The notes: generated by a model not told the origin, from the sequence alone. A DNA stretch of 64,000 bases from Thermomicrobium sp. CFH 73360 (GCF_023806465.1 NZ_JAMSLS010000007.1:62001-126000), one strand, 5' to 3'; numbered from the stretch's first letter, positions 19,885 through 33,957 are shown. Numbers and translations are program-made.

Positions 19885-22800
19885 TCACCTCGCCACACGC
19901 CCCGCACCGCTGTCTGTCGAGGCCAGAGCGGTAAGTTGGCTCACGAGCTCCTGGGCAACCTGCGTCAGGTAACCAAGTCGCCCGTCTAGCTGCTCGCGTG
20001 ATCGTTGCCGGAGCGAGGGCACGAGCTCGCGAACGGCGCGTGCATCCTCTCCGTCGATCCGGACCAGCCGGAGGAGTGGCGCCCACGGATACCCTCGCTT
20101 CGCCAAGTCCTGAATCATTGCACCACGCCCAAGGGCCGACTCGATCGCCGCCGCCTCCCGCAGAACCGCACGCGCTTGGGCTTCCAGTGCACTTCGGTGC
20201 ACAGACCACAACTGCGCCTCGCGTGCCGCCTCACGCTCACGCTCAGCCGCACAGCGCGCAGCAAAGTCCTGTTCCGCCACGCGGACGGCAGTCTCTGTCC
20301 ACGCCCCTGAGGCCGTCACCGCCTCACGAAATTCGCGCAGTGACGTGATCGGCACCGCTCGGTCACCGTCCAGCCAGTAATAGCCAACCCGCCCCGTTTC
20401 GTCCGTCAGCCGCAGGAGATGCGGTGGGAGTTCGCCAAGAGCACGCTCCAAGAGTGTCTCGAGCACCTTAAGACCGTACGTGAGAAACCGCAACTCCTCT
20501 CGACGCTCCTCGTAGGTGCGACGGTCCAGCGTGACGGTCACCCGCCCCGCATCGTCGAAGACGCGGTACACCCGTTCCATCCGCGGGTGACGGCGGAAGA
20601 CATCGGCAACGGCTGGGAGTTCGAACAACGTTTGCTCAAGCTCAGAGAGCGTGACCGGTGGTGACCATCCTGTCACTTGGGAGGTTGCCGCGTCCGGTTC
20701 GAGCAATGTCCGCAGGAGGTCCTGCTCCTCGCGATGCGCGAGTTCCCGCTCGAGCTCCTCCAGGAGGTGCCTCAACTCCCGACGACGCTCGGCCTCCGGT
20801 GCGACCGCGAGCCGCCGAATGTCTTCGCTGACCCGTGTCAGGATCGGCTGCAGTTCGCCAACCACATTGCGGAACCAATCGATCCGCTCCCCCAAGCGCA
20901 GGTAGATCTCTGCTTCGACCGTATCGTCATAGAGCAGGTGCACGATCCGCACCACGGGATGGCGTTGACCGATCCGATCAAAGCGACCAATCCGCTGTTC
21001 GACCCGCATTGGATTCCAGGGCAAGTCGTAGTTCACCAGGACGCCACAGGTCTGCAGGTTCAGACCCTCGCTCGCCGCGTCGGTGCAGAGCAGTAGCCGC
21101 ACGCGTCGTCCCTCACGGAACAACCCCGCTAGCTCCGACCGACTGATTGGCTCCCACCTGCCGTCTCGCCAGACCTCGCCCCCACGACCGGAATAGCAAG
21201 CAACCTGACTTCCGTAGATCGGCACCAAGTGCTCACGGAGATCAAGAAGCGTATCGTAGTACTCCGTGAAGACGGCGACCGTCTCTGATTCGGCAAAGAG
21301 GCGCTCCAGCAACTGCCGCAGGTGCTGACGCTTGGAGTCACCGCGAAGATTTTGGAGATCTCCGAGGAAACTGCGCAGGTAACGGATCTCTTCCTCCGTC
21401 GCCCAGCGATCAATATCACTGAGCCGTTCCTGGAGATCACGGTCGAGTTCCTCGTCAGACACGTCTTCTTCCGTCAGACCAATATCGGTACTGCGCCTCT
21501 CCAGGAACGCCAACCGTCGCTCCAGACTGAGTCGCACCGCCGCGAAGCTCGAGGTGAGCCGACGCCGGTAGATCGTCATCACAAAGCCCAGTCCAGGCCG
21601 TTCAGCCTCGTACCGTGCGTAGAACTCCGTGACGTATTCCTCTATCCGGTCATACAGTGCACGCTCCGGATCAGTGAGCGTGACCCACTGCACCGCAGGA
21701 TCGCGTTCAGCGAGCGGTTCGCTGAGCAGCCCACTTTCGCGGTACCGGCGGAGCAATGACCGGGTGTGACGGAGCATCAGTCGGCGAACGGGTGTATACC
21801 GGCGCAACGCAAGCCGCAGTGCAGCCTTCGACTCGGCATCAAGTGTCCGCGGCGGGTCACTGGCTCCGTCCGTCGTCAACAGTCGCGCGATCTGCTTCCA
21901 ACGGGCCAACCCCAAACGTTCTCGCGTGCCTGCGACGAACTCATCATCGAGGCCACCACGTACCGCGAGCTCCTCGCGAGCGAGCTGAAGAAGGAATGTC
22001 CAGTCCGGCTCCTCCCCGTCGGTACGGCGGAATTGCTCGAAGTAGCGCACAAAGTCTTCAGGACTCGCCCCCCACCGACCCGGGAGGCCGAGGAGTGAGA
22101 GGAGTTCCCAGAGCTCGCTTGGGTGCAATTGCATCGGCGTGGCTGTGAGCAGCCAGAGCCCACGTGTCCGCATGCTCAGCTCGCGTAACAAAGACAGCAA
22201 GCGGTTCGGATGCCCATCGGCGTCCCGCCGTGCGTGGTGCGCCTCGTCGACCAGCACCAAGTCCCACGGCTGGGCCTGGAGAAGCTTCTCCGCCCAATCG
22301 CGTCGCTTGGCAAGGTGGCTCGAGAGCAACAGCAGCGGTTGCGTCTCCAGGAGCTCCGTCAGCTCAATAGGAAAACTGCCTCCCTCGGCGGACCAGAGCC
22401 TCCCCGCATCGTAGCGCGGAACAGCGAGTCCTGCCTTGTCCAGGAGCTCCTCCTGCCATTGCCGAACCAGTCCTCCCGGCACGAGCAACAAGACCCGCTG
22501 CACACGCCCGCCGAGCAGGAGCTCGCGTAAGGCCAGTGCTGCTTCAATCGTCTTCCCCAATCCCACCTCGTCGGCGAGCAGGAATCGCTCGGGATACTTC
22601 TCGACCAATCGCTCGACAACGCGTCGTTGGTGTGGCCACGGCACAACCGGCGCTGTGGCGAGTCCGACCCAACGGGCACCGACGACGCGCGGTAGGTCAA
22701 GCAAGAAGCGCGCAATCGCCCCATTGGCGTCGGGTCCTGCCTGGTAGATCGCAGATTCCTCGCGCACTTCCGGCACAGGCACTACGACCCGTTCCAGCGG

Positions 22801-23523
22801 GTCGTAGAGCGGGGGCTCATCAGTTCGGTACTGCAGCAGGTGCTGGCGCACGGCATCCGGCAAGGGAAGCGTCCGCCAGCGCTGTTCCTCCCCCTGCCAG
22901 AGTCGCTCGAACTGCTGCGCAATACCCTCAAGGTACCGACGGGACTCATCCCAGGAAAAGTAGACAGCGAGCGCTTCGTAATTCTGTACCCACCCCGCAG
23001 CAGTCTCGTTGACACTCCCTTCAAACGCAACTTGGTCACCGGTGGCGTCGGTAAACAGACCGTATTTCACGTGGAAGTACGGCGCCGCAGCCTCTGCTGC
23101 CAGTGGTTGTCCACGTGGCCCCAACGGTAACACGACACGGATCTCGAGTCGTTGCTCAGCCGCGAGCCACGCCAGGGCTGCGAGTCGCTCCCGCTCCAAG
23201 AGTTCCTCAACTGTGGCCAACCCCTGCAAGAGCCGCTGCTCGACGACCGCGCTGAGGGCCTCCCCGTAAAGAATTGCTTCTACATCTTCCGGGCTGAGCG
23301 CCGCGCCGACCAACAAGCGCATGCGACCGCCGTTGGCAACCAGCCGCGCTACTCCGGCGGCCGCCACGGCAAGCGCCGAACTGGAAAAGAATCCGGTCGC
23401 TCGGTCATAGCGCACACTCCGCTCAAGCGCCGGCAAGTAGAAGCGGTGGAGCCGATCATCACCCTCGCCATACCGAGGGGCGAAGGGATAACTGCGTAGG
23501 TCTGGAGCGCCCGCTACCTGCAT
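19885..23523 (-). CDS. PLD-nuclease/SNF2-type helicase fusion, defence-associated
   Basis: 1212 residues. The N-terminal phospholipase D-like domain (about 20-210) has HVK at 151-153 and GSVN at 169-172, an HKD-type nuclease half-site. A superfamily 2 helicase follows: LADEVGLGKTIEAAL (Walker A 321-325), VLVDEAHH (426-430), LLTATPMQ (459-465), then the C-terminal lobe with AVFTEYYDTLLDLR, LLCTDAASEGLNLQ and RVEQRIGRFDRIGQ. The last 300 residues are charged and helical. This architecture is that of DISARM DrmD-like and BREX-associated helicases. It probably remodels or degrades foreign DNA with the upstream methylase and ATPase. A 757-base gap separates it from the methylase. Confidence 0.9.
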   Translation of the reverse strand: MQVAGAPDLRSYPFAPRYGEGDDRLHRFYLPALERSVRYDRATGFFSSSALAVAAAGVARLVANGGRMRLLVGAALSPEDVEAILYGEALSAVVEQRLLQGLATVEELLERERLAALAWLAAEQRLEIRVVLPLGPRGQPLAAEAAAPYFHVKYGLFTDATGDQVAFEGSVNETAAGWVQNYEALAVYFSWDESRRYLEGIAQQFERLWQGEEQRWRTLPLPDAVRQHLLQYRTDEPPLYDPLERVVVPVPEVREESAIYQAGPDANGAIARFLLDLPRVVGARWVGLATAPVVPWPHQRRVVERLVEKYPERFLLADEVGLGKTIEAALALRELLLGGRVQRVLLLVPGGLVRQWQEELLDKAGLAVPRYDAGRLWSAEGGSFPIELTELLETQPLLLLSSHLAKRRDWAEKLLQAQPWDLVLVDEAHHARRDADGHPNRLLSLLRELSMRTRGLWLLTATPMQLHPSELWELLSLLGLPGRWGASPEDFVRYFEQFRRTDGEEPDWTFLLQLAREELAVRGGLDDEFVAGTRERLGLARWKQIARLLTTDGASDPPRTLDAESKAALRLALRRYTPVRRLMLRHTRSLLRRYRESGLLSEPLAERDPAVQWVTLTDPERALYDRIEEYVTEFYARYEAERPGLGFVMTIYRRRLTSSFAAVRLSLERRLAFLERRSTDIGLTEEDVSDEELDRDLQERLSDIDRWATEEEIRYLRSFLGDLQNLRGDSKRQHLRQLLERLFAESETVAVFTEYYDTLLDLREHLVPIYGSQVACYSGRGGEVWRDGRWEPISRSELAGLFREGRRVRLLLCTDAASEGLNLQTCGVLVNYDLPWNPMRVEQRIGRFDRIGQRHPVVRIVHLLYDDTVEAEIYLRLGERIDWFRNVVGELQPILTRVSEDIRRLAVAPEAERRRELRHLLEELERELAHREEQDLLRTLLEPDAATSQVTGWSPPVTLSELEQTLFELPAVADVFRRHPRMERVYRVFDDAGRVTVTLDRRTYEERREELRFLTYGLKVLETLLERALGELPPHLLRLTDETGRVGYYWLDGDRAVPITSLREFREAVTASGAWTETAVRVAEQDFAARCAAEREREAAREAQLWSVHRSALEAQARAVLREAAAIESALGRGAMIQDLAKRGYPWAPLLRLVRIDGEDARAVRELVPSLRQRSREQLDGRLGYLTQVAQELVSQLTALASTDSGAGRVAR

Positions 23524-24280
23524 GCCTGCCGCGCCTCTCCCTCACCGACAACACAGCAGAAGCGTCATCCGGCACCATCCCGGTGCGCTGAGTCCCCTCA
23601 CGGCGCAAGCGAGCGAACCCTCACGAGCGGGAAGTCCCGCATGGACCGCGGGGCGGAAGCCAGTGATCCAACCGTGCCCGTGACTCTTCCCCACCACGCT
23701 TCCAGGAGAGCGAGGGACGACCGAACATCCCGGCTCAGCCAGTCGCGCTGCCTTACCGCGCAGAGTGACCGCGAATACTTTGCCACGGCGCACGAGGTCT
23801 GCTCCACCCGTTCCAAAGGCTAGTCACGCCTGATGCCGTGGCGCCGACCCCCTGCACGCAGCAACCTGAGCCGCCATCCCCTGCTCAGCAACTCTCATCC
23901 GACACGAGCCACGCACCAACCTCCTGCAGCAGGTAACGGCCCCAAGGACGGGCGGACGCCGACATCGCGCTCGACGACTGCAATCCCGTCTGGGCAAACG
24001 ACTCGCCCTTGCCAGAATATCCCGTGCCGGAACCTTGACTGCGTCCATTCGTACCAGGGGCGAGCGGGTCGACCTCACGTCGCACTACCGCCCCGGCAGC
24101 GGTTGCGGAGCAGCCCGGAGGCCGAGCCGGAGCCGCCTCCCCGTTGGGGTGTACGCGCTGCCGCCGCGTGGACGAGCTGCTCCTGGCCCGACAGATCCAG
24201 TCCCTCCAGCGCTGTGTTCCCGATACCGGCGCATCATGAAAGCCTCGGCTGCCTCAGCCGCACTGACTCGGCCGAGGGAC
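23524..24280. other. Gene-free gap inside the defence-type cluster
   Basis: 757 bases between methylase stop and helicase start. Several short frames on both strands overlap one another and none resembles a known protein. A GC-rich inverted repeat (CCTCGGC ... GCCGAGG) lies around 24239-24277 just after the methylase stop, possibly a terminator without a U-run. It may hold a lost or unrecognised small gene. Confidence 0.4.
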
Positions 24281-27241
24281 TTACTCGGCGCTGTCCTCAT
24301 CGTCCTCCGCGTCTGCTCCATCCTCGCCCAGCACCAGCCGCGCCTGGCCATACACGTGCTTTTGTTCCGGCTCTTGCGGCGGTGCGATATCCGGGTAGCA
24401 GTAGGCGCGCAGGGCCTCCAGCCACTCCGCTTCGGGAAGTTGCAGACGACCGTCCCGGCCGCGCTGCCGCGGGATCGCCTCCAGCAGCGCGGCAACGTAG
24501 GCCCGGAAGGCATTGTCCCGCCGCAGCCCGACGCGCTCCAGGTAACGCTCCGCCGCCCCCACACCGTCCTCTTCAGTCAGGACAAGCGCCATGTGCAGTC
24601 CGTCCACAAGGCGTGTCGGCGTCCCGTCAACCGTCACCGCCTTGCGCTGCCACCGTTCCTTGGGGGTAAGGAGCTTGACTGCATCGTTGGCCCTCTGGGC
24701 CAGACGCGCGCCCGACAGAATCTCGCGCTCCAGCTCCACACCGGTGGCTAGCGCCAACTTGCGGGCCTCGTCGAATGGGAACTCCCGTGCCTTGAGCATC
24801 TCCCAGCTCATCAAGTACCAGTCGCTGATCGGATCAAACTGCATCCGCTGCCCATGCAGGAGCCGCTCACGGACCAGCCCAAGCACCTCTTCCCGCGCCG
24901 CATCGAGCGCCGCCTCGGCACGGAGCGGGATAGGTCGCCCCTGCGCGTCGGCCTGACTCGTCAACACGGGCCAGCGCGCCGAGATGACGCTGAGCGCCGT
25001 CCCATAGGTCGCCAGCACCAGATCGATTCCGTGCAACCCCCACGCTGCCAGCTCTTGGGCACGGGACCGGACCCGCTGCCGCAGGAGCGGCTTGATCTCG
25101 TCCCACCAGACAGCCCCTTCACCTGATGGGCGCTTGCGGCAACTCAGCAGGATCGTCGAACGCGCAGCGTTCTTCTTGGCCTGGTGCAAACTGTGCTCTG
25201 ACTCAGTGTGGACTGGCCAGGACGCAGTCACTTGGAAGCCCGCGTCGATCAGCGCCTGCGCCAGCGCGTCCCAGGCGTCGACTCTCTTGTGGGTGAACAT
25301 GACCGTCAGAACGCCGTCTGAGCGCAGGACGCGGGCACACTCTTGGAAGATGGCGGTCATTTTGCGCTCGTAGTCCCGCCGTGCCAAATCCTGTGCCTGG
25401 CCGCGCCGACCCAGTGCAGCGAACCGTGCCGGGTTGGCCACCGCCTCGCTATCCTTCTCGGTCAGCGGGGCAGAGAACCAGTCCGGGTAGAGGTGCCCCA
25501 CGGTGCGCTTGAGCCAGACATAGAAGAAATCAGAAAGCTCTGCGTACTGGACGTTGTCGTAGTAGGGCGGGTCGATGCAGACCAGGTGGACCGAGCCGTC
25601 CGGGAGATGGCGAAGATTCCGGGCATCGCCCTGGGTGATGCGCAGACGCTCGACCGGGGACTGACCCTGGCGCTGCCAGAGTGGCAGCCGGGCTGGCTGG
25701 GTCAGCTGGGCGATCCCACGGTAGGCATCGACCACCTGGTTGATCGCCCAGTCAAGCCCCTTACCCGCCGCCACCACCGCCATCTCGGCATAGCTCCACT
25801 TCATGCTGAAGTCATGGCGGTCAAAGGTATTGGCAATGGTACTGTGCCGCGAGTGCCAACACGACAATCGTGAGTTGTAGTTGGCCAGCTTATCCACCGC
25901 CAACGCCAAGTAGGTCAGGACGGCCCGGGCGCGGTCGGCCGGCAATGCGGCGAACAACTCCGACTCCAACGCCCGTAACGCCTCGACCGTCGTCCCGAGC
26001 GCGAGCAACTGTCGTGGGTTGAACAGATCCCGCCAGCGGGTCATGCCGTAGCGGAGCGGTTCAGCAGTCTTATTGCCGAGCGGGATCTCCTCATCCGGCA
26101 GCACGTCGCGGGCCAGCCAGATGGGAAGGCGGCGGGCCAGCTCGGCCTCGGCGGCCGCCGCCGCAGCAAGGTCAGCTTCAGTCGGCGGACGGAAGTCGAT
26201 ACCCCGCGCCGTCTTGACAACGACGGCATAGAGTTGCTGGCCCATGCGACCGGCCTGCGCCTCCCGCTTGATGTAGTCCCCGTCGACCACCTGCCCGGTC
26301 CAGGGAGAGACGGCGTCGCCGCGGCGGATGGTCCCCTGCTCCGCGACGCGGTCGGCCTCCGCACCGCGCACGATCTCGAAACGACACTCCGGCCAGTCAG
26401 GCTGGCAAAGGAGCCGCACCGCGACATGGGCACGGTTGTCTCGCTGGAGCCACCAGTTCGGGGAGAGAGGAATCGGCTTCCCGGTCTGGGGACAGGCGAC
26501 GGTACGGGCCCAGAGGTAGGCATGGACGAGACCGTTCGACTCGCGGGGGTAGATGACTTCGAGTGGTGGCTCCAACCGCCCGATAAGACGAGCGCTCCAC
26601 TGCAGAATCTCTTCGGCCAGAGTTTCACCAAAACGGGCTGGGTAATCAAGCGTAGCGCACAGGATAACAGCGGCAACCGGATTGAGCTCGTTCGCATGCA
26701 CCGTTAGCCCGATCCGCAATGATTCGAGGGGTATAGAGCCACCACCTGCTGTAGGGTCAAGCACCGTAACAAGGTCACTTTCCCAGTGATCTGCAAGCAA
26801 CTGCACCAGAGCAGCCAGCTCCTCTTCAAGCGGCGAGAACATGAACGCGCGCTTGTAACCGAATGCCCCGTACGCGAGCCGCTCACCGCGGGCGTCGGCC
26901 TCGGCAATCCTGGCGCGGGCAGCGACCGGATCGCCATGGATCCCCAAGAGCCAGCGGAACCAGCTGTGGTAGGCCTCGCGAGTGGGAAAGCGCTGCCGCA
27001 GCGGCTCTGGCCAATCCGGCCGCCAGGCTGGTAAGAGACTCGCCAGCACCGCCGCCCGACTGACCACCAACGGCCGCCGCGCCCACCAGACGTGGAGAAA
27101 ATAGAGGGGCGGCAAAGCACTGCTCGCCGACCGCTCGCGCTGCGCCTCGATGCCCAACTCCTGGATTGGCAGCCACTCCTCGATTAAGAGAGGCCCTGTC
27201 TGCACCCTCGTCGTCGCCCCTGCTTCCTCACCGTGCCTCAT
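24281..27241 (-). CDS. DUF1156 adenine-specific DNA methylase (COG1743 type)
   Basis: 986 residues. The N-terminal DUF1156 region has LIEEWLPIQELGIEAQRERS followed by HVWWARRPLVVSRA. The SAM-binding motif I equivalent is LDPTAGGGSIP (161-171), and the catalytic motif IV is DPPYYD (557-562) in a segment VCIDPPYYDNVQYAELSDFF, typical of N6-adenine methylases. CWHSRHSTIANTFDRHDFSMKW is also a family hallmark. It should methylate host DNA as self-marking, like PglX in BREX. The start overlaps the upstream gene's stop by 14 bases, so it is coupled to the tryptophan-rich protein. The protein ends in an acidic tail. Confidence 0.92.
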   Translation of the reverse strand: MRHGEEAGATTRVQTGPLLIEEWLPIQELGIEAQRERSASSALPPLYFLHVWWARRPLVVSRAAVLASLLPAWRPDWPEPLRQRFPTREAYHSWFRWLLGIHGDPVAARARIAEADARGERLAYGAFGYKRAFMFSPLEEELAALVQLLADHWESDLVTVLDPTAGGGSIPLESLRIGLTVHANELNPVAAVILCATLDYPARFGETLAEEILQWSARLIGRLEPPLEVIYPRESNGLVHAYLWARTVACPQTGKPIPLSPNWWLQRDNRAHVAVRLLCQPDWPECRFEIVRGAEADRVAEQGTIRRGDAVSPWTGQVVDGDYIKREAQAGRMGQQLYAVVVKTARGIDFRPPTEADLAAAAAAEAELARRLPIWLARDVLPDEEIPLGNKTAEPLRYGMTRWRDLFNPRQLLALGTTVEALRALESELFAALPADRARAVLTYLALAVDKLANYNSRLSCWHSRHSTIANTFDRHDFSMKWSYAEMAVVAAGKGLDWAINQVVDAYRGIAQLTQPARLPLWQRQGQSPVERLRITQGDARNLRHLPDGSVHLVCIDPPYYDNVQYAELSDFFYVWLKRTVGHLYPDWFSAPLTEKDSEAVANPARFAALGRRGQAQDLARRDYERKMTAIFQECARVLRSDGVLTVMFTHKRVDAWDALAQALIDAGFQVTASWPVHTESEHSLHQAKKNAARSTILLSCRKRPSGEGAVWWDEIKPLLRQRVRSRAQELAAWGLHGIDLVLATYGTALSVISARWPVLTSQADAQGRPIPLRAEAALDAAREEVLGLVRERLLHGQRMQFDPISDWYLMSWEMLKAREFPFDEARKLALATGVELEREILSGARLAQRANDAVKLLTPKERWQRKAVTVDGTPTRLVDGLHMALVLTEEDGVGAAERYLERVGLRRDNAFRAYVAALLEAIPRQRGRDGRLQLPEAEWLEALRAYCYPDIAPPQEPEQKHVYGQARLVLGEDGADAEDDEDSAE

Positions 27242-28112
27242 GGCGCGTCCCTTTCTTATCCTGACGCGGAAGCTCCTCTGCCGCTACTGCCCGGCAGCAC
27301 TCGGTGCGGCTGTGTCTTCCAGTTCCGCTGCGCTTCCCCGTGGCCACCGTGCCCGATGCGCGGGCTGCGCGCGGAGAGCCGCTCGCACCCGCCCGCGGTC
27401 GATACTGCACCACTGTTCCTCGATCATCGACCCAGGAGCGAGCAGCCAGGCCGCTATGGGGTTGCCCCCACCAGAGTGCCCAGCCCCCGATCGACGGCCG
27501 TGTCAGCCGATAAACACCATCACGGTAGCCAGCCCACCATAACCAGCGCGGTAAGGCCGCTGGCACGGCAACCGGCTCGTCCACGGCCAATTCCCCGACC
27601 AGTGGGATCTCCTCCGCACGGCCATCCTTCCTCTGCAGACGCGCCAGCGGCCCGTCCGGCCCCGGCACAACACTCAGAAAGACACCCTGCGCCTGCTGCC
27701 TACCCGTGAGCCGGATCGCACGTCTGGCTGCCTTCGCCAACGATGCCGAGTCGAGGACAGCAACCAGCGGGCCGGAGGCAAACAAGAGCTCTGCAGCCGC
27801 TTCTGGACAGGGTCGCACCGCGGCCCGCCACCAGAACGGGAGAGAGGGGGAAAGAACGCCGCCGAGCATCAGGCTCGCCGGGCGGCGACGCCTACCGAAA
27901 AGACGCGCGAGCAGTGGCGGTCGTACCCGCTCAAGGATGAACGCCATCCCCCACGGTCTGAGGTTCCGGAAGCACCCTTCCGGCCAGGGGCCGTCACCCG
28001 GCCACCACACCGCGAGATGACGCCGGCCCACCCAGACGCCATGCTCACCCCACGGAGACGGACCGGGTGCCACCAGCACGACATCGTTGCGCAGGAGCGG
28101 CAACTTGAGCAT
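27228..28112 (-). CDS. Tryptophan-rich protein of unknown function in the defence-type cluster
   Basis: 294 residues. I do not recognise a family. About 15 tryptophans are spread along the first 240 residues (HLAVWWPGDGPWP, RWLWWAGYRDGVYRL, GGWALWWGQP), and the last 50 residues are basic and low in complexity. There is no signal peptide or clear membrane helix. It starts 23 bases after the zinc-ribbon gene and its end overlaps the methylase start, so it is embedded in the operon and probably part of the system. A structural or nucleic-acid-binding role is possible but unsupported. Confidence 0.75.
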   Translation of the reverse strand: MLKLPLLRNDVVLVAPGPSPWGEHGVWVGRRHLAVWWPGDGPWPEGCFRNLRPWGMAFILERVRPPLLARLFGRRRRPASLMLGGVLSPSLPFWWRAAVRPCPEAAAELLFASGPLVAVLDSASLAKAARRAIRLTGRQQAQGVFLSVVPGPDGPLARLQRKDGRAEEIPLVGELAVDEPVAVPAALPRWLWWAGYRDGVYRLTRPSIGGWALWWGQPHSGLAARSWVDDRGTVVQYRPRAGASGSPRAARASGTVATGKRSGTGRHSRTECCRAVAAEELPRQDKKGTRHEAR

Positions 28113-28135
28113 CCGGCGCGCTCCCTTCGGTTCCT

Positions 28136-28660
28136 CTAAGGCCCCTCCTCGGTGTCCGGCGCGGTCGGATCGATCCCAGTTGACAACTGATCGCCACGGT
28201 CCGCAACCTGCGGCAGCTTCTTCTTTGCCGAGCCGTGCCCCCGGTGCTGTGTCAGCGGCTCCTCACAATGCCGCACCACAGTCCCATGCTCATCCTCGAT
28301 ATGCTCAAAGTACCAGTCGTTCTCCCGGTCAATGATCCGATGGATTCTGTGCCACTCCCCGGTCTTCTGGAAGCAACTCTCTCCAGATCGAACCTCACGA
28401 TACGGCTTGTCCCGGCCTGGCTTCCACTGCATCAGGACCACCCGCGCCTTCAGATCCAGCGTCACGCTGTCCGAGACAGAGATCTGCTGATGCCCCGAGC
28501 CGCACTCGGGACACGCACTGTGGGCTGGAGAAAGAGGCGCGCCGCAGTTCATGCATCGTATCGTTGGCTGAGGACCATCCTGAGAGGAGTGGTCTTGTGC
28601 ACTCATTGGCATCGAGCTCTCCGGAGAGTCCGTCCCTGAGTCCGCGTCCAACCCTCTCAC
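28136..28660 (-). CDS. Small zinc-ribbon protein in the defence-type cluster
   Basis: 174 residues. A zinc ribbon CMNCG ... CPECG (Cys36, 39, 50, 53) is followed by a conserved-looking core with GESCFQKTGEWHRIHRIIDR, DWYFEHIEDEHGTVVRHCEE and PLTQHRGHGSAKKK. I recall similar cores in short proteins from mobile or defence regions, but have no functional name for them. The C-terminal 25 residues are low in complexity. The start is uncertain because Met18 and Met20 are alternatives. It begins 12 bases after the preceding stop, consistent with one transcript. Confidence 0.75.
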   Translation of the reverse strand: MRGLDADSGTDSPESSMPMSAQDHSSQDGPQPTIRCMNCGAPLSPAHSACPECGSGHQQISVSDSVTLDLKARVVLMQWKPGRDKPYREVRSGESCFQKTGEWHRIHRIIDRENDWYFEHIEDEHGTVVRHCEEPLTQHRGHGSAKKKLPQVADRGDQLSTGIDPTAPDTEEGP

Positions 28661-28672
28661 GCTGCGCTGCTC

Positions 28673-29116
28673 TCACTCGCCGGCCAGCAGGATCCGTAGT
28701 GCGCGGCGTCCGCGGCGCGCGCGACCTGGCCTGGTGCATTGGGCGTACCAGTAGTACGTCTCCTCATCCGCCAGCTGCCGCACCCCTTCAATCAGCCGCA
28801 CCATCCGCTCTACCCGACGCAGAGGCCGCAGTGTCAGGAAGAGCACACCGAAGCGCGCTCCCAGTGCATCGGGCAGTTGCACCCGTCCGTTGCGCTCCAG
28901 TTCCTGCACCTCAGCCCGACCGAGCCAGTACCGGAGATCGTTCTCGGCAACGGTCAGCGCTCGGCCAGAGAGGGATCCCACCCGCTGACGCTTGAGCCGC
29001 CGACGGGCACGCCCGTCCGCCGCCCGCTGCTCCACCTGCCATAAGACCACCTCGCGCCTCGTTGCTCGTTGTCGCACGGTGAGCTCAAACCAGCGTCCCG
29101 TACAGTTCCCCGTCAT
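28673..29116 (-). CDS. Small basic protein (DUF7680-like) in the defence-type cluster
   Basis: 147 residues starting 5 bases after the DUF499 stop. It is Arg-rich. Its C-terminal half (FGVLFLTLRPLRRVERMVRLIEGV then EETYYWYAQC ... RRALRILLAGE) resembles, from memory, short proteins placed beside DUF499 and DUF1156 genes and now labelled DUF7680; this needs a profile search. The position between the ATPase and the rest of the operon argues for a structural or regulatory part of the complex. Confidence 0.7.
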   Translation of the reverse strand: MTGNCTGRWFELTVRQRATRREVVLWQVEQRAADGRARRRLKRQRVGSLSGRALTVAENDLRYWLGRAEVQELERNGRVQLPDALGARFGVLFLTLRPLRRVERMVRLIEGVRQLADEETYYWYAQCTRPGRARRGRRALRILLAGE

Positions 29117-29121
29117 GTGGT

Positions 29122-32100
29122 TTACTCCCGATACCCTTGCGCCGTGAGCAGCACTTTCCCTAACGCGGCAGCCAGTTCGCCTTCACCACACCGGACCAGC
29201 TGCTGGGTTTCCACAACGGTGAGTTGTTCATAGCGAAGCTGGAAGCGGGCAGACAGGTGCCGAGCGTCGGAGAGTGGTGCTTCGAAGAGGCTCCGATAGC
29301 GCAGGTATTGCTCAGGCGGACCAGTGAAGGTCAGGTCAAGCTCACCACCCTGCCCGAGTGTGGCCGTCAAGGACGCTTCAAGCTTCGGCTCTAGTTGCCC
29401 CAAGGAACGGAGCTGATCGACCCAGAGCCCAAAGGCCCGCACCTCACTCGCCTCCGCGGTCTCAAGGTGCAGCGTGAGATTCGCGAGGAGCGTCAACTGC
29501 CGATCACGAATCTCATCCAGGAGACCCACAAAGACTTGACCGACAGTGCCTTCACGCTTGATCCATTCCTCGATTTGCTGCTCCGGTCGTGGCCGAACTT
29601 CTTCAGCACAGCGACACTGCTCTGTCGGCTCGCCACAGACAGGACAGTACTGGGTAACCACTGGGGCGGGACTTTTCCCGGGACGGACGACGGGGAGACC
29701 AGCCCGTTCCGCCGCTTCTGGGGTATAGACGAACGTATCATCCGCCAGCCGGATGCTGGGTTCTCGGCCAGAATGTGCATCGTACGCTTCCCTCGCGGCC
29801 GCATCATAATAGACCCAGACGTCAGCCCGGATTCCCAATCGGATGATCTCGCGCAGCGCATTTGCCGCGTCCGCGAGGATGGGCAGACCAGTGTAGCGAG
29901 CGAAGGCGCGTCGCAGCTCAACGGTGGAAAGGTACTCCTGCTTCCCAAACGCACGCTGCTGCACCAAGGCAGGAGCGGGAAGGCCTTTGCCAGCCTCGGC
30001 GTGCCGAATTTTCTCGAGTTCTCGTAATCGCTCCTCAATAACCGTGGTCTGGTTCTTTTCGACCGTCCCTTGATCGCGGATGGGCAGCATCTCCCGTTGG
30101 AGCGGTACGCTGTTAATCGCCGCATCCCCCTGCGGGTAATACAGAAAGCGGTAAGCACGCAGGATCGCTATCCGTAGTTGGAGCTCCTCGTCGCCCCTTC
30201 GTGTCTTCAACTCTTGCTGTTTCTGTTCGCTAAGTAACGGGTCTCGCCTCGCGAGCAGCCGGTCCAATGCGAGCACCGTTCGCGCCCGTTCCACAGCCGT
30301 GCCAACAGCTCCTCCATCCGCCACAAGGAAGACCACGTTGTTACGGTAGGTACGGAAGCTGTTCTGTCCCGCCTGTTCGAACAGCCGCCGCACGAGCTCC
30401 GGCACTGTCTCTTCGTCTGCCGTCGTCGTTACCGCATCGAAGTGAAGGATCACCAGTCTCGGTTGGTCGGCGTCATCCGGGAGCTCGGCCGGGTCGCTCG
30501 GAAAGAACTCCGGCTTAAGCACGCTCGGCTTGAAGATCGCCTCAATCCGTTGGCAGATGAACTCTTTTGCCTGCGTGACAGGAACACGCGCTCGCTCTTC
30601 GTCAATGATCTTCTGGAGCTGCGGCTCAGTGGCAAACCAATATCGATGATGCCCCTCGTCCGTGGCCAAGAACCAGCACTGCCGCCGCAGTTCGTCGAGC
30701 ACGCGGGCAAGCGTGTCGGGTTGGTCATTAGGACGCAGCGTTGCAGCAAGAAGCGAGGGCGGGTCGATCCCGACGACGCCGGCGCTCGCCAAGGAGTGCA
30801 GGAAGATCGTGGTCGCCAGACGTTGGGCTGGACGCAAGTCGCCATATGCCAAATCAATCGCCTCGGCGTGGGACGGTGCCTTGGGATCACGGGAAGCGAT
30901 ATCCGCTTCCGCAACCTGCTTGAAAGCCGGCCGATCCAGGCGGTTGGTCAAGTCTTCCAAGATGTCCGGATCACCCAGATCGACGTCAGCCGGATGGATC
31001 AGCCACAGATGTGGTGGCTTCCGGTTCCAGAGGCGCCGCACCACGCGCGCCAGAAGTCGCAGGGCACCACGAGTCCGCTGAAAGTTCGGGATCGAACCGA
31101 CCCGGGTATCTAGGACCTGGACAAGCTCCGGATGGAAGGGATAACTGCGCGCAATGCGCTCGGCATACTCCGCCATCGTGACCGCTGGCGGCAACGACAC
31201 CTTTTGCCCATCCCATCGACGCAAGGCCTCGAGATAGGCCTGCGCCACCTCCTCGGCCGCTCTCTGGTCAACGTATTCGAAAAGACGATGGACCACGATA
31301 GCGGGGATCTCTTCCGGCTCGGCCGGGGTCAACAACCGCGCACTTCGGGCAATCACCGAAAGCGCTTCACGGAGCCGTTCGGTCCCTTCGGCAAAGGCAT
31401 CGGTCGAGGACGCCATGGTGAGCACGACTAAGACATTCCGCCGTGCTGCCGCAAACTCGAGCAATGCATGCAAGAAAGCGATCGTCTGGTCGGCCAGCGT
31501 CCCCTTCCCGGTTGCAGTTGGGACTGCCTCGGCCACGACGACATAGCGTGCCAGCTCATCCAGAAGGATGAGGACCGGTCGCTCACCAAACAATTGCTCA
31601 AGCGTCGCTCGACCTGGCGCTGCCTTCGTGCGGTGGTCAGACTCCTCCACCAGGCGATACGCTTTTGGGCCTCCAAGCTGGTAAGCAAGTTCTCCCCAGA
31701 GCGTATACGTCGTCACCTCGGGATGTGGCACCCCCTGGGTGGGATCAAGATCGGTGCCCACGACCGCAGCCACGCTGACCGAACCGCGTTCTGGCAACGG
31801 CATCTCACCGACAACCCGGGCTGCCGCTCGCTCACCACGCGCGGCATGGTAGAGGGCAATAAGCGCGTGCGTCTTCCCGCCACCGAACGGCGTCTCAAGG
31901 AGGAGGACGCCATTGGCAGATGGATCGCTCCCGGTCAGGCGACCGAGTGCCTCGCGCAAAAAGGTTCGTAGCTGCATCGTTGGATACGTCTGGCTGAAGA
32001 AACGTTCCGGGTCTTGGTACACCGGTTCGGCCGTCCCCAGAACCACGCTTGCCAGACTCGCGGCAAACAAGTCGTCACGGAGCTCGCCGCTGAGCACTTC

Positions 32101-32136
32101 CGGCCGTGGGACACAGGCCTCAAAGATCGTTCGCAT
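29122..32136 (-). CDS. DUF499 AAA-type ATPase (BrxC/PglY-related), defence-associated
   Basis: 1004 residues from the ATG at 32136 after GGGAG; the open frame continues upstream to 32274 without conserved features. Walker A is ETPFGGGKTH (81-90) and Walker B is PVLILLDELARYV (187-199), both hallmark DUF499 sequences. A large helical middle follows, and near residue 855 a Cys cluster CPVCGEPTEQCRC may bind zinc. DUF499 ATPases are related to BREX BrxC/PglY and are linked to phage defence. This is the first gene of the minus-strand cluster. Its role is probably ATP-driven assembly or DNA sensing with the methylase and helicase. Confidence 0.92.
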   Translation of the reverse strand: MRTIFEACVPRPEVLSGELRDDLFAASLASVVLGTAEPVYQDPERFFSQTYPTMQLRTFLREALGRLTGSDPSANGVLLLETPFGGGKTHALIALYHAARGERAAARVVGEMPLPERGSVSVAAVVGTDLDPTQGVPHPEVTTYTLWGELAYQLGGPKAYRLVEESDHRTKAAPGRATLEQLFGERPVLILLDELARYVVVAEAVPTATGKGTLADQTIAFLHALLEFAAARRNVLVVLTMASSTDAFAEGTERLREALSVIARSARLLTPAEPEEIPAIVVHRLFEYVDQRAAEEVAQAYLEALRRWDGQKVSLPPAVTMAEYAERIARSYPFHPELVQVLDTRVGSIPNFQRTRGALRLLARVVRRLWNRKPPHLWLIHPADVDLGDPDILEDLTNRLDRPAFKQVAEADIASRDPKAPSHAEAIDLAYGDLRPAQRLATTIFLHSLASAGVVGIDPPSLLAATLRPNDQPDTLARVLDELRRQCWFLATDEGHHRYWFATEPQLQKIIDEERARVPVTQAKEFICQRIEAIFKPSVLKPEFFPSDPAELPDDADQPRLVILHFDAVTTTADEETVPELVRRLFEQAGQNSFRTYRNNVVFLVADGGAVGTAVERARTVLALDRLLARRDPLLSEQKQQELKTRRGDEELQLRIAILRAYRFLYYPQGDAAINSVPLQREMLPIRDQGTVEKNQTTVIEERLRELEKIRHAEAGKGLPAPALVQQRAFGKQEYLSTVELRRAFARYTGLPILADAANALREIIRLGIRADVWVYYDAAAREAYDAHSGREPSIRLADDTFVYTPEAAERAGLPVVRPGKSPAPVVTQYCPVCGEPTEQCRCAEEVRPRPEQQIEEWIKREGTVGQVFVGLLDEIRDRQLTLLANLTLHLETAEASEVRAFGLWVDQLRSLGQLEPKLEASLTATLGQGGELDLTFTGPPEQYLRYRSLFEAPLSDARHLSARFQLRYEQLTVVETQQLVRCGEGELAAALGKVLLTAQGYRE

Positions 32137-32643: not shown

Positions 32644-33957
32644 TCAGGGAGTCAGGCGGAAGAACGTCGTGACATACCGGTCAGCCAGGAACGGGTCATC
32701 ATACATCAGAAGACCTGCTGCATCCGACGAGAGTACCTCCCAACAGACGTTGCCGCGGATTGTTCCGCCGGTAAATACCTCGCGGTCGCTAATTTCGTCC
32801 GGGATCACTCCACAGCTGTGCTCGAACGTGCTGTAGGAGACGTTCGCCGGACCGACCGCACGCAGGCGGAAGCTCCCGTCAAAGCGCGCCGAGCCCTGAC
32901 CGCGATACGTCGCTTCGACCGTTGCGATGAAGAACTGATGTCCTGCAGCCGGCGGTTCGTTGAACATATTCTCGCGCAGGACGAGCTCCGTGGCGTTCGG
33001 GATCACCCCGACGACGCGCACCTCCCAGTTGCCGTAGAGAATCGCCGACTCTCCACGCGGAATTGGGTTGTTGCGGCTCCCCCGATCGGGCGCAAGTTCG
33101 TAGCGCCAGCGATAGTAGTGCTGCCCCACATTCCCCGCCTCCACTTGCCATCCGGGGGGATTATCGGGCGTGTAGGTCAGAACCCGCCGCTCGAACACTT
33201 GAACGAGGACCTGCTTTGGCTGACCACCCACCCGGACCGTCGTCCAATAGGCTTCGGTGATCGGGAAACCCGTTGCGTAGAAGGGATTGGGGAAAAGCGG
33301 CCCCTCGCGGAAGAGCCCGTACTCCGCGATCAGCCCGCGGCTGTTCATGAACGCCCAGAACGGTGAGGCGACCGTGTGTTGGGTCTCCGGGACCAGAACC
33401 GCAGCAGTCACCCGATAGCGAGCCAACGCGGGATCCTGTCCAACTGAGCCGTTCCGATCGATGGTGGCCGTGATGACCTGTCCAGTCGGAACGGGAGGAG
33501 CGCTCAGGAGGGCACTGAAGCTTGCGTAGGTCGGCGCATCTGGATCGTCTGGATCACCAGCCACCGGGATCTGGGCCGGGCCGTAGTCTTGGAATGTGTT
33601 GTCCCCATATTGCCGCCGTCCAGTGACCAGTTCCTTGGCCAAGAGCCCATTCGTGACCCGCCATGGCGAGTCGTACGGCTCATGCTCGTTCAGCTCCATC
33701 CGCGTCTTGTCAAAGTACTGGACGGAGCGTGCCCCATCTTCGGCCTCCACATAGCGCTCCCAGAGCGCCGGAGTGAACGGTCCTGGCCCCCACATCCAGG
33801 TCCGCGCTGCTCGTCCGGCCTGCACCGGGAGATCAGTGCGTTCCCACGTCTTCCGGAACTCGTAGTGCCCAAACTCCACCTGCTGCGCCTGCACCGGCGC
33901 GATCCCTTGGACAGCAACAGCAAGAAGCATCGCGAGGAACAGCGAGAGTCGCCGCAT
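32644..33957 (-). CDS. Secreted protein with LGFP-like modules and a C-terminal DUF4352-like domain
   Basis: 437 residues, start ATG at 33957 after GGGGGTG. A cleavable signal peptide (about 1-24, ending VQAQ) is followed by two divergent copies of the module also found at 1-1545 and 57288-59036: SVQYFDKTRMELN near 80-110 and TGFPITEAYW...VLVQVFERRVLTY near 225-270. Residues about 300-437 form a beta-rich domain with LRENMFNEPPAAGHQFFIATVEATY and SARFDGSFRLRAVG, resembling DUF4352/telomere-repeat-binding-like extracellular domains. Function unknown; possibly cell-surface. Monocistronic and convergent with nothing close by. Confidence 0.8.
   Translation of the reverse strand: MRRLSLFLAMLLAVAVQGIAPVQAQQVEFGHYEFRKTWERTDLPVQAGRAARTWMWGPGPFTPALWERYVEAEDGARSVQYFDKTRMELNEHEPYDSPWRVTNGLLAKELVTGRRQYGDNTFQDYGPAQIPVAGDPDDPDAPTYASFSALLSAPPVPTGQVITATIDRNGSVGQDPALARYRVTAAVLVPETQHTVASPFWAFMNSRGLIAEYGLFREGPLFPNPFYATGFPITEAYWTTVRVGGQPKQVLVQVFERRVLTYTPDNPPGWQVEAGNVGQHYYRWRYELAPDRGSRNNPIPRGESAILYGNWEVRVVGVIPNATELVLRENMFNEPPAAGHQFFIATVEATYRGQGSARFDGSFRLRAVGPANVSYSTFEHSCGVIPDEISDREVFTGGTIRGNVCWEVLSSDAAGLLMYDDPFLADRYVTTFFRLTP

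Follow-up and report, generated by a model that had tools for sequence, protein, structure and literature searches.

We describe here an operon of six genes, at positions 19885 to 32136 on the minus strand of a 64,000-nucleotide stretch of Thermomicrobium sp. CFH 73360 DNA (the window), that is probably a restriction-modification-like antiviral system centred on a DUF499 ATPase, in which a methylase would mark self, DUF499 together with the small protein DUF7680 would scan DNA and an HKD-SNF2 fusion would cut it. This is not a new kind of system: the operon is of the DUF499-centred, BREX-related (BR) kind without PglZ, a kind already known and defined by Rakesh and Krishnan 2026 (PMC12839542). 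Within the literature that we searched, what appears to be undescribed is the branch of that kind to which the operon belongs, a lineage marked by DUF7680.

In transcription order the genes encode a DUF499 AAA+/ORC-like ATPase related to HmaC and BrxC (29122..32136), the DUF7680 protein (28673..29116), a zinc-ribbon protein with a CxxC...CxxC pattern and weak zinc-ribbon matches (28136..28660), a Trp-rich protein (27228..28112), a DUF1156 DNA methyltransferase (24281..27241) and, beyond a gap of 757 bases (23524..24280), a fusion of an HKD(PLD) nuclease with an SNF2/RapA-like helicase (19885..23523). The spacing given in the initial annotation—gaps of 5, 12 and 23 bases, an overlap of 14 and the long gap—follows from these coordinates, and its start for the DUF499 gene, an ATG at 32136, is right: a longer frame with a TTG start reaches 32274, but for most homologues the alignment begins only near residue 44-52 of it. 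The long gap holds no supported gene, judging by the table of gaps and by an alignment with the closest relative, whose own gap is 738 bases and largely unlike in sequence (439 of 757 positions identical, with many alignment gaps and no sign of a conserved gene, which rules out a hidden one); in many relatives the interval is only 1-20 bases. Given such a gap, the helicase is possibly under its own promoter.

The surroundings are of a housekeeping type (gamma-glutamyltranspeptidase, RNase Z, an NMT1-type ABC transporter and NadA), and the operon is no compositional island, the GC3 of its genes (0.67-0.78) overlapping that of flank genes (0.64-0.75). No 14-mer shared between the operon borders was found. 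Just upstream of the operon, window positions 32644-33957 encode a protein of 437 residues without a family match, which is 95% identical in HRbin28 and has similar stretches elsewhere in Thermomicrobium genomes.

Scans against Pfam, PADLOC and NCBIfam models agreed on the three large proteins and placed them in the families first claimed for them. The ATPase matches PF04465 (E 1.2e-40) and the PADLOC models HmaC (E 1e-108) and DUF499 (E 3e-64), and it carries the Walker A motif GGGKTH; the methylase matches PF06634 (E 2.1e-16) and HmaB (E 1e-85), with motif I as DPTAGGGS and motif IV as DPPYYD. The helicase matches SNF2 (E 2.1e-16) and Helicase_C (E 5.6e-15), contains DEAH and bears an N-terminal HKD domain, whose HxK...GSxN motif is intact and whose PLDc_2 match (E 2.7e-5) falls just below the family cut-off; PLD was the sole nuclease domain in the Pfam scan of this protein, which found no C-terminal REase domain. 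Among solved structures, RapA is nearest to the helicase (E 1e-38), and no relative was found for the ATPase or the methylase. We predict that the ATPase scans DNA and drives assembly, that the methylase is an N6-adenine self-marking enzyme and that the HKD-SNF2 fusion is the restriction effector.

How does such a set of genes sit among the systems already described? BR systems have a tripartite core in one locus, a DUF499 ATPase, a DUF1156 methylase and an SNF2 helicase, and the window has all three. In Type-1 BR, which is Hma, the helicase ends in a C-terminal REase (PMC12839542, PMC8565338); Type-2 BR has an HKD-helicase and DUF3780, and Type-3 BR has PglZ and iSTAND (PMC12839542). The proposal of a self-contained cassette holds for its restriction-like composition, with no PglZ and no nearby DrmB, but the kind had already been described (as BR, PMC12839542, with one subtype as Hma, PMC8565338). 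The further proposal, of a mechanism unlike that of classical BREX, probably overstates the distance, since the literature describes BR systems as relatives of BREX type 3 that carry an HKD or PD-(D/E)XK nuclease in the place of PglZ.

Several known systems can be set aside. BREX type 3 and Type-3 BR have, according to the literature, a related ATPase, methylase and helicase, and DISARM has a DrmD-like SNF2 helicase core in common with the window; however, no pglZ or drmA/B gene lies near the operon, the operon itself is without DrmA and DrmB, and the whole genome assembly gave 0 matches to PglZ and likewise no BrxC/D-type gene. With no PglZ genome-wide and no DrmB nearby, full BREX, Type-3 BR and DISARM are ruled out. 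MZB (DUF1998) domains, a DrmB-like signal, occur only on other contigs, where three matches in frames of 1539-1693 residues (G000:C23:229625, C2:40492 and C35:120690) possibly represent helicases of the YprA family from different defence systems. PbeABCD (PMC6459918, PMC10853773) likewise fuses HKD to an SF2 helicase, and the PbeA model matches residues 12-431 of the window helicase, but PbeABCD has a CxC ABC ATPase and DndE where the operon has DUF499 and a methylase; neither of the former was matched among the operon proteins in Pfam or PADLOC, and the type of ATPase rules this system out.

Hma is closer, sharing the DUF499 ATPase and the DUF1156 methylase. Its genes, however, run in the order helicase-methylase-ATPase with no fourth core gene, DUF7680 is absent from Hma systems, and the one Hma-type locus scanned (L144) has a C-terminal NOV_C domain on the helicase that the window helicase is without. 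That locus scores 998-1547 bits on the Hma models, on which the window scores 218-363. Gene order, the HKD fusion and the trees described below rule out Hma proper.

The initial annotation had listed two small proteins, and two genes are indeed present, but they differ in standing: one is a core component, PF24728 DUF7680 (E 9e-32), and the other, the zinc-ribbon protein, is accessory cargo. A profile built from ten DUF7680 proteins led to 55 loci in named genomes, and 36 plasmid records match one DUF7680 protein by tblastn; none was found in phage records. The bacterial hosts span Thermomicrobiota, Chloroflexota, Bacillota, Actinomycetota, Cyanobacteriota, Planctomycetota, Gemmatimonadota, Bryobacterales and several proteobacterial lines, and the archaeal hosts are haloarchaea and Asgard archaea. 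Where the contig leaves room, DUF7680 is preceded by DUF499 in 57 of 61 loci and followed by the DUF1156 methylase in 51 of 57, and the PLD(HKD)-SNF2 helicase, the last gene, was found in 34 of 41, the misses being partly contig ends or broken genes. The gene order is conserved in many genomes: the bare four genes stand contiguously on Rhodococcus, Sinorhizobium and Aminobacter plasmids, and similar loci occur in Haloplanus and Picosynechococcus PCC 7002. In most loci the DUF499 and DUF7680 frames overlap by 4 bases, which suggests translational coupling. Pairwise distances of the four core proteins correlate at r 0.76-0.94 in a mirror-tree comparison, of which a part is expected from shared host descent; the permutation maximum, for the one protein pair tested, was 0.35.

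DUF7680 is no rarer than DUF3780 in a Chloroflexota-type sample, where they exceed the cut-off in 11 and 7 of 301 genomes, and in plasmid records (36 versus 20, with one query each). We regard it as a core component and the signature of its lineage, with a predicted role as reader or adaptor. Two Asgard MAGs (L071 and L076) each hold two divergent DUF7680 proteins, encoded on opposite strands and adjoining or near a DUF499 gene, and a third (L077) holds such a pair without a detected DUF499; these pairs are possibly heterodimers or duplicated readers.

What might DUF7680 be? It occupies the slot between ATPase and methylase that DUF3780 occupies in Type-2 BR systems, standalone DUF3780 being present in 98% of published Type-2 loci. 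An ASCH domain precedes it in 16 of 20 long DUF7680 proteins, and ASCH fusions are reported for some DUF3780 proteins too (PMC12839542). AF2 models of the two (pLDDT 90 for DUF7680 and 81 for DUF3780) share the element order E-E-E-H-E-H-H-H-H, that is, three strands, a long helix, a strand and four helices, which agrees with the published description of DUF3780 (four strands, five helices); no PDB fold match was found for either model. Their profiles align collinearly and end to end over 144 columns with a score of 26.2, which none of 400 shuffles equalled (maxima 20.4 in 200 column shuffles and 21.0 in 200 block shuffles). The similarity is weak in hhalign (P 0.0024), whose probability of only 12% leaves homology short of proof; we infer that DUF7680 is a divergent homologue of DUF3780, probably a remote one, and its functional counterpart.

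One may then ask whether the operon is simply a Type-2 BR system, in which DUF7680 is a fast-evolving DUF3780 and its separate clade an effect of sampling rather than a lineage of its own. Gene order, the HKD-SNF2 effector, the presence of a small protein between the ATPase and methylase genes, its predicted topology and the ASCH fusions are all alike, and DUF7680 proteins found through their structure may already be part of the published Type-2 set; even so, we think this reading unlikely. Taking NCBIfam NF042961-NF042964 as the Type-2 reference models and DUF3780-linked loci as Type-2 (that of a Thermomicrobium roseum plasmid, L189, is an example), we find the window DUF7680 matched by no NCBIfam, PADLOC or Pfam DUF3780 model. 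The ATPase, methylase and helicase reach 266 of 1200, 264 of 1000 and 384 of 1100 bits on NF042962, NF042963 and NF042964, or between roughly a fifth and a third of what the equivalog cut-offs demand, whereas L091, a system of the same class that has DUF3780, clears the cut-off on two of the four models and falls less short of it on the others. The window ATPase and methylase score higher on the Hma models than on the Type-2 ones. Methylase identity averages 23% to the DUF3780 type, below the 29% to Hma-like methylases; the helicase is slightly closer to the DUF3780 type (29%) than to the Hma-like one (26%). DUF7680 systems mostly have DPPYYD and FGGGKTH, as do Hma-like ones, whereas DUF3780 systems mostly have DPPYAD and MGGGKTH. 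Helicases run to about 1050-1260 residues in DUF7680 systems versus 900-980 in Type-2 BR, and a cargo slot, discussed below, is frequent in the former, unlike the latter.

The trees also argue against a plain Type-2 assignment. Those of DUF499, methylase and helicase fall into the same three groups—DUF7680, DUF3780 and Hma-like, the last drawn from one phylum sample—with all trees unrooted, so that they give no branching order. In the DUF499 tree (IQ-TREE) supports are 100/99 for the Hma-like group, 100/100 for the DUF3780 group and 98/96 for 20 of 21 DUF7680 rows, the remaining, divergent row (L208) standing beside but outside its group; support is 95 (SH-aLRT) in the methylase tree and 88 in the helicase tree. 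A locus with a marginal DUF7680 match (L022) groups elsewhere.

The type of nuclease follows these groups. Scored by motif counting (HxK and GSxN within the first 360 helicase residues), HKD is present in 29 of 33 helicases with DUF7680 and in 15 of 15 with DUF3780 (44 of 48 together), and it is absent from all 31 Hma-like ones, which were chosen by DUF499 regardless of helicase within one phylum sample. The four DUF7680 loci without a scored motif are L025 and L067 (over-long ORF calls), L064 (a chance match far from an operon) and the Asgard locus L071. In the material examined, then, the HKD effector and DUF7680 or DUF3780 travel together. A bolder reading, on which we are evenly divided, is that DUF7680 defines an unrecognised fourth BR lineage across bacteria and archaea, including Asgard MAGs; that DUF7680 and DUF3780 would serve as adaptors dedicated to HKD-type effectors, accompanying every fused HKD nuclease and missing from systems with an Hma-type nuclease; and that the gap after DUF7680 would be a slot exchanging accessory effectors while the four core genes co-evolve. 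DUF7680 is named in none of the papers searched; the supplementary tables of PMC12839542 may already count some of these loci under another type.

As for the slot, the DUF7680 and methylase genes overlap by a few bases at one extreme and lie 6.8 kb apart at the other. At other loci the slot contains an OLD-type ATPase-TOPRIM, a BrxC/D-like ATPase with a DEAD helicase, GmrSD, Mrr, or genes for Schlafen/AlbA, HipA, PIN and Phd; the Thermomicrobia frequently have a Trp-rich gene, a zinc-ribbon gene or both there, as optional, exchangeable accessory cargo. Relatives of the zinc-ribbon protein occur in the same slot of L032 and L038 and, more weakly, of L025 and L231. The C-terminal half of this protein (IHRIIDREND..EHIED..G.VV....PLTQH.GHGSAK) is strongly conserved.

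The Trp-rich protein, first taken for an orphan, turns out to have relatives in five other Thermomicrobiaceae DUF7680 loci; four of these are 51-67% identical to it and the fifth, in G182, about 43-45%, and so far it is a cargo specific to Thermomicrobiaceae. Codon positions of its gene differ from those of L226 by 0.27/0.21/0.55, and this excess at third positions, together with the identity to the four copies, indicates a gene under selection; with relatives in five other slots, a spurious frame is ruled out. The copy in L228 is frameshifted, and two others end earlier. At another site of G126, the closest relative, short zinc-ribbon-like and Trp-rich-like stretches lie close together (L230, G126:C1:110000-129000).

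How might the cassette work? The DUF1156 methylase would mark adenines in the cell's own DNA at a specific motif, and the DUF499 ATPase, with tightly coupled DUF7680, would scan DNA and judge whether it carries the mark. If invading DNA is unmarked, the complex would recruit or license the SNF2 translocase, whose fused HKD domain would cut. The zinc-ribbon and Trp-rich proteins would be optional additions, other members carrying further defence or toxin-antitoxin genes in the slot. Methylation, sensing, cleavage and an antiviral effect are inferred from gene composition and the model in the literature, and phage defence is the likely function of the operon.

The logic could also be reversed, as in Type IV-like, modification-dependent systems, with DUF7680 or ASCH reading modified viral bases, the HKD-helicase cutting modified DNA and the methylase in another role. 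SauUSI is modification-dependent. It is a PLD nuclease-helicase acting as an ATP-dependent endonuclease (PMC7913695), and the ASCH fusions speak for such a reading, since ASCH/PUA domains are considered to read modified bases (PMC12839542); but retention of the methylase in 51 of the 57 loci with room, and its co-variation with the other proteins, suggest self-marking, and we judge this reversal improbable. Improbable too, in our estimate, is a main role in blocking plasmids or other mobile elements, or in stabilising the cassette's own element, rather than in phage defence: the cassette does occur on plasmids, some of them conjugative, and some slots hold toxin-antitoxin genes, but chromosomal sites occur too, and related systems are reported as anti-phage (HmaA, PMC12839542; NCBIfam names).

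Within its genome the restriction-modification-like cassette is present in one copy, DUF499 occurring once, and no DUF3780 was found there. In the closest relative, G126, the operon occupies the same site, where the flanking DNA is 90% identical and the operon proteins are 74-84% identical. In G174 this flank and the operon are on one contig but apart, at 397 kb and 1702 kb respectively, which means that the location of the cassette varies within the genus. Another contig of G174 carries a DUF3780-type system (L094, C6:628000-647900) in which the genes for the DUF499 ATPase, the methylase and the helicase are all broken into several frames; the same genome holds an apparently intact DUF7680-type ATPase and methylase. 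Fourteen viral-classed IMG/VR contigs (L192-L205) have DUF3780, most with DUF499, methylase and HKD-helicase as well, and are possibly prophages or other mobile elements. The Sulfolobus viruses STSV1 (AJ783769) and STSV2 (JQ287645) encode DUF1156-like methylases 27-28% identical to that of the window, candidate orphan counter-defence enzymes that would shield viral DNA if such systems read methylation, which fits a viral response.

Two things have kept the DUF7680 cassette out of sight: its signature gene carries the label 'hypothetical', and the existing defence models derive from the DUF3780 and Hma branches. With DUF7680 named, this widespread and probably antiviral cassette can be found; it also offers a testable rule, one small partner per nuclease type, for how BREX-like systems may couple the sensing of self and non-self to different nucleases.
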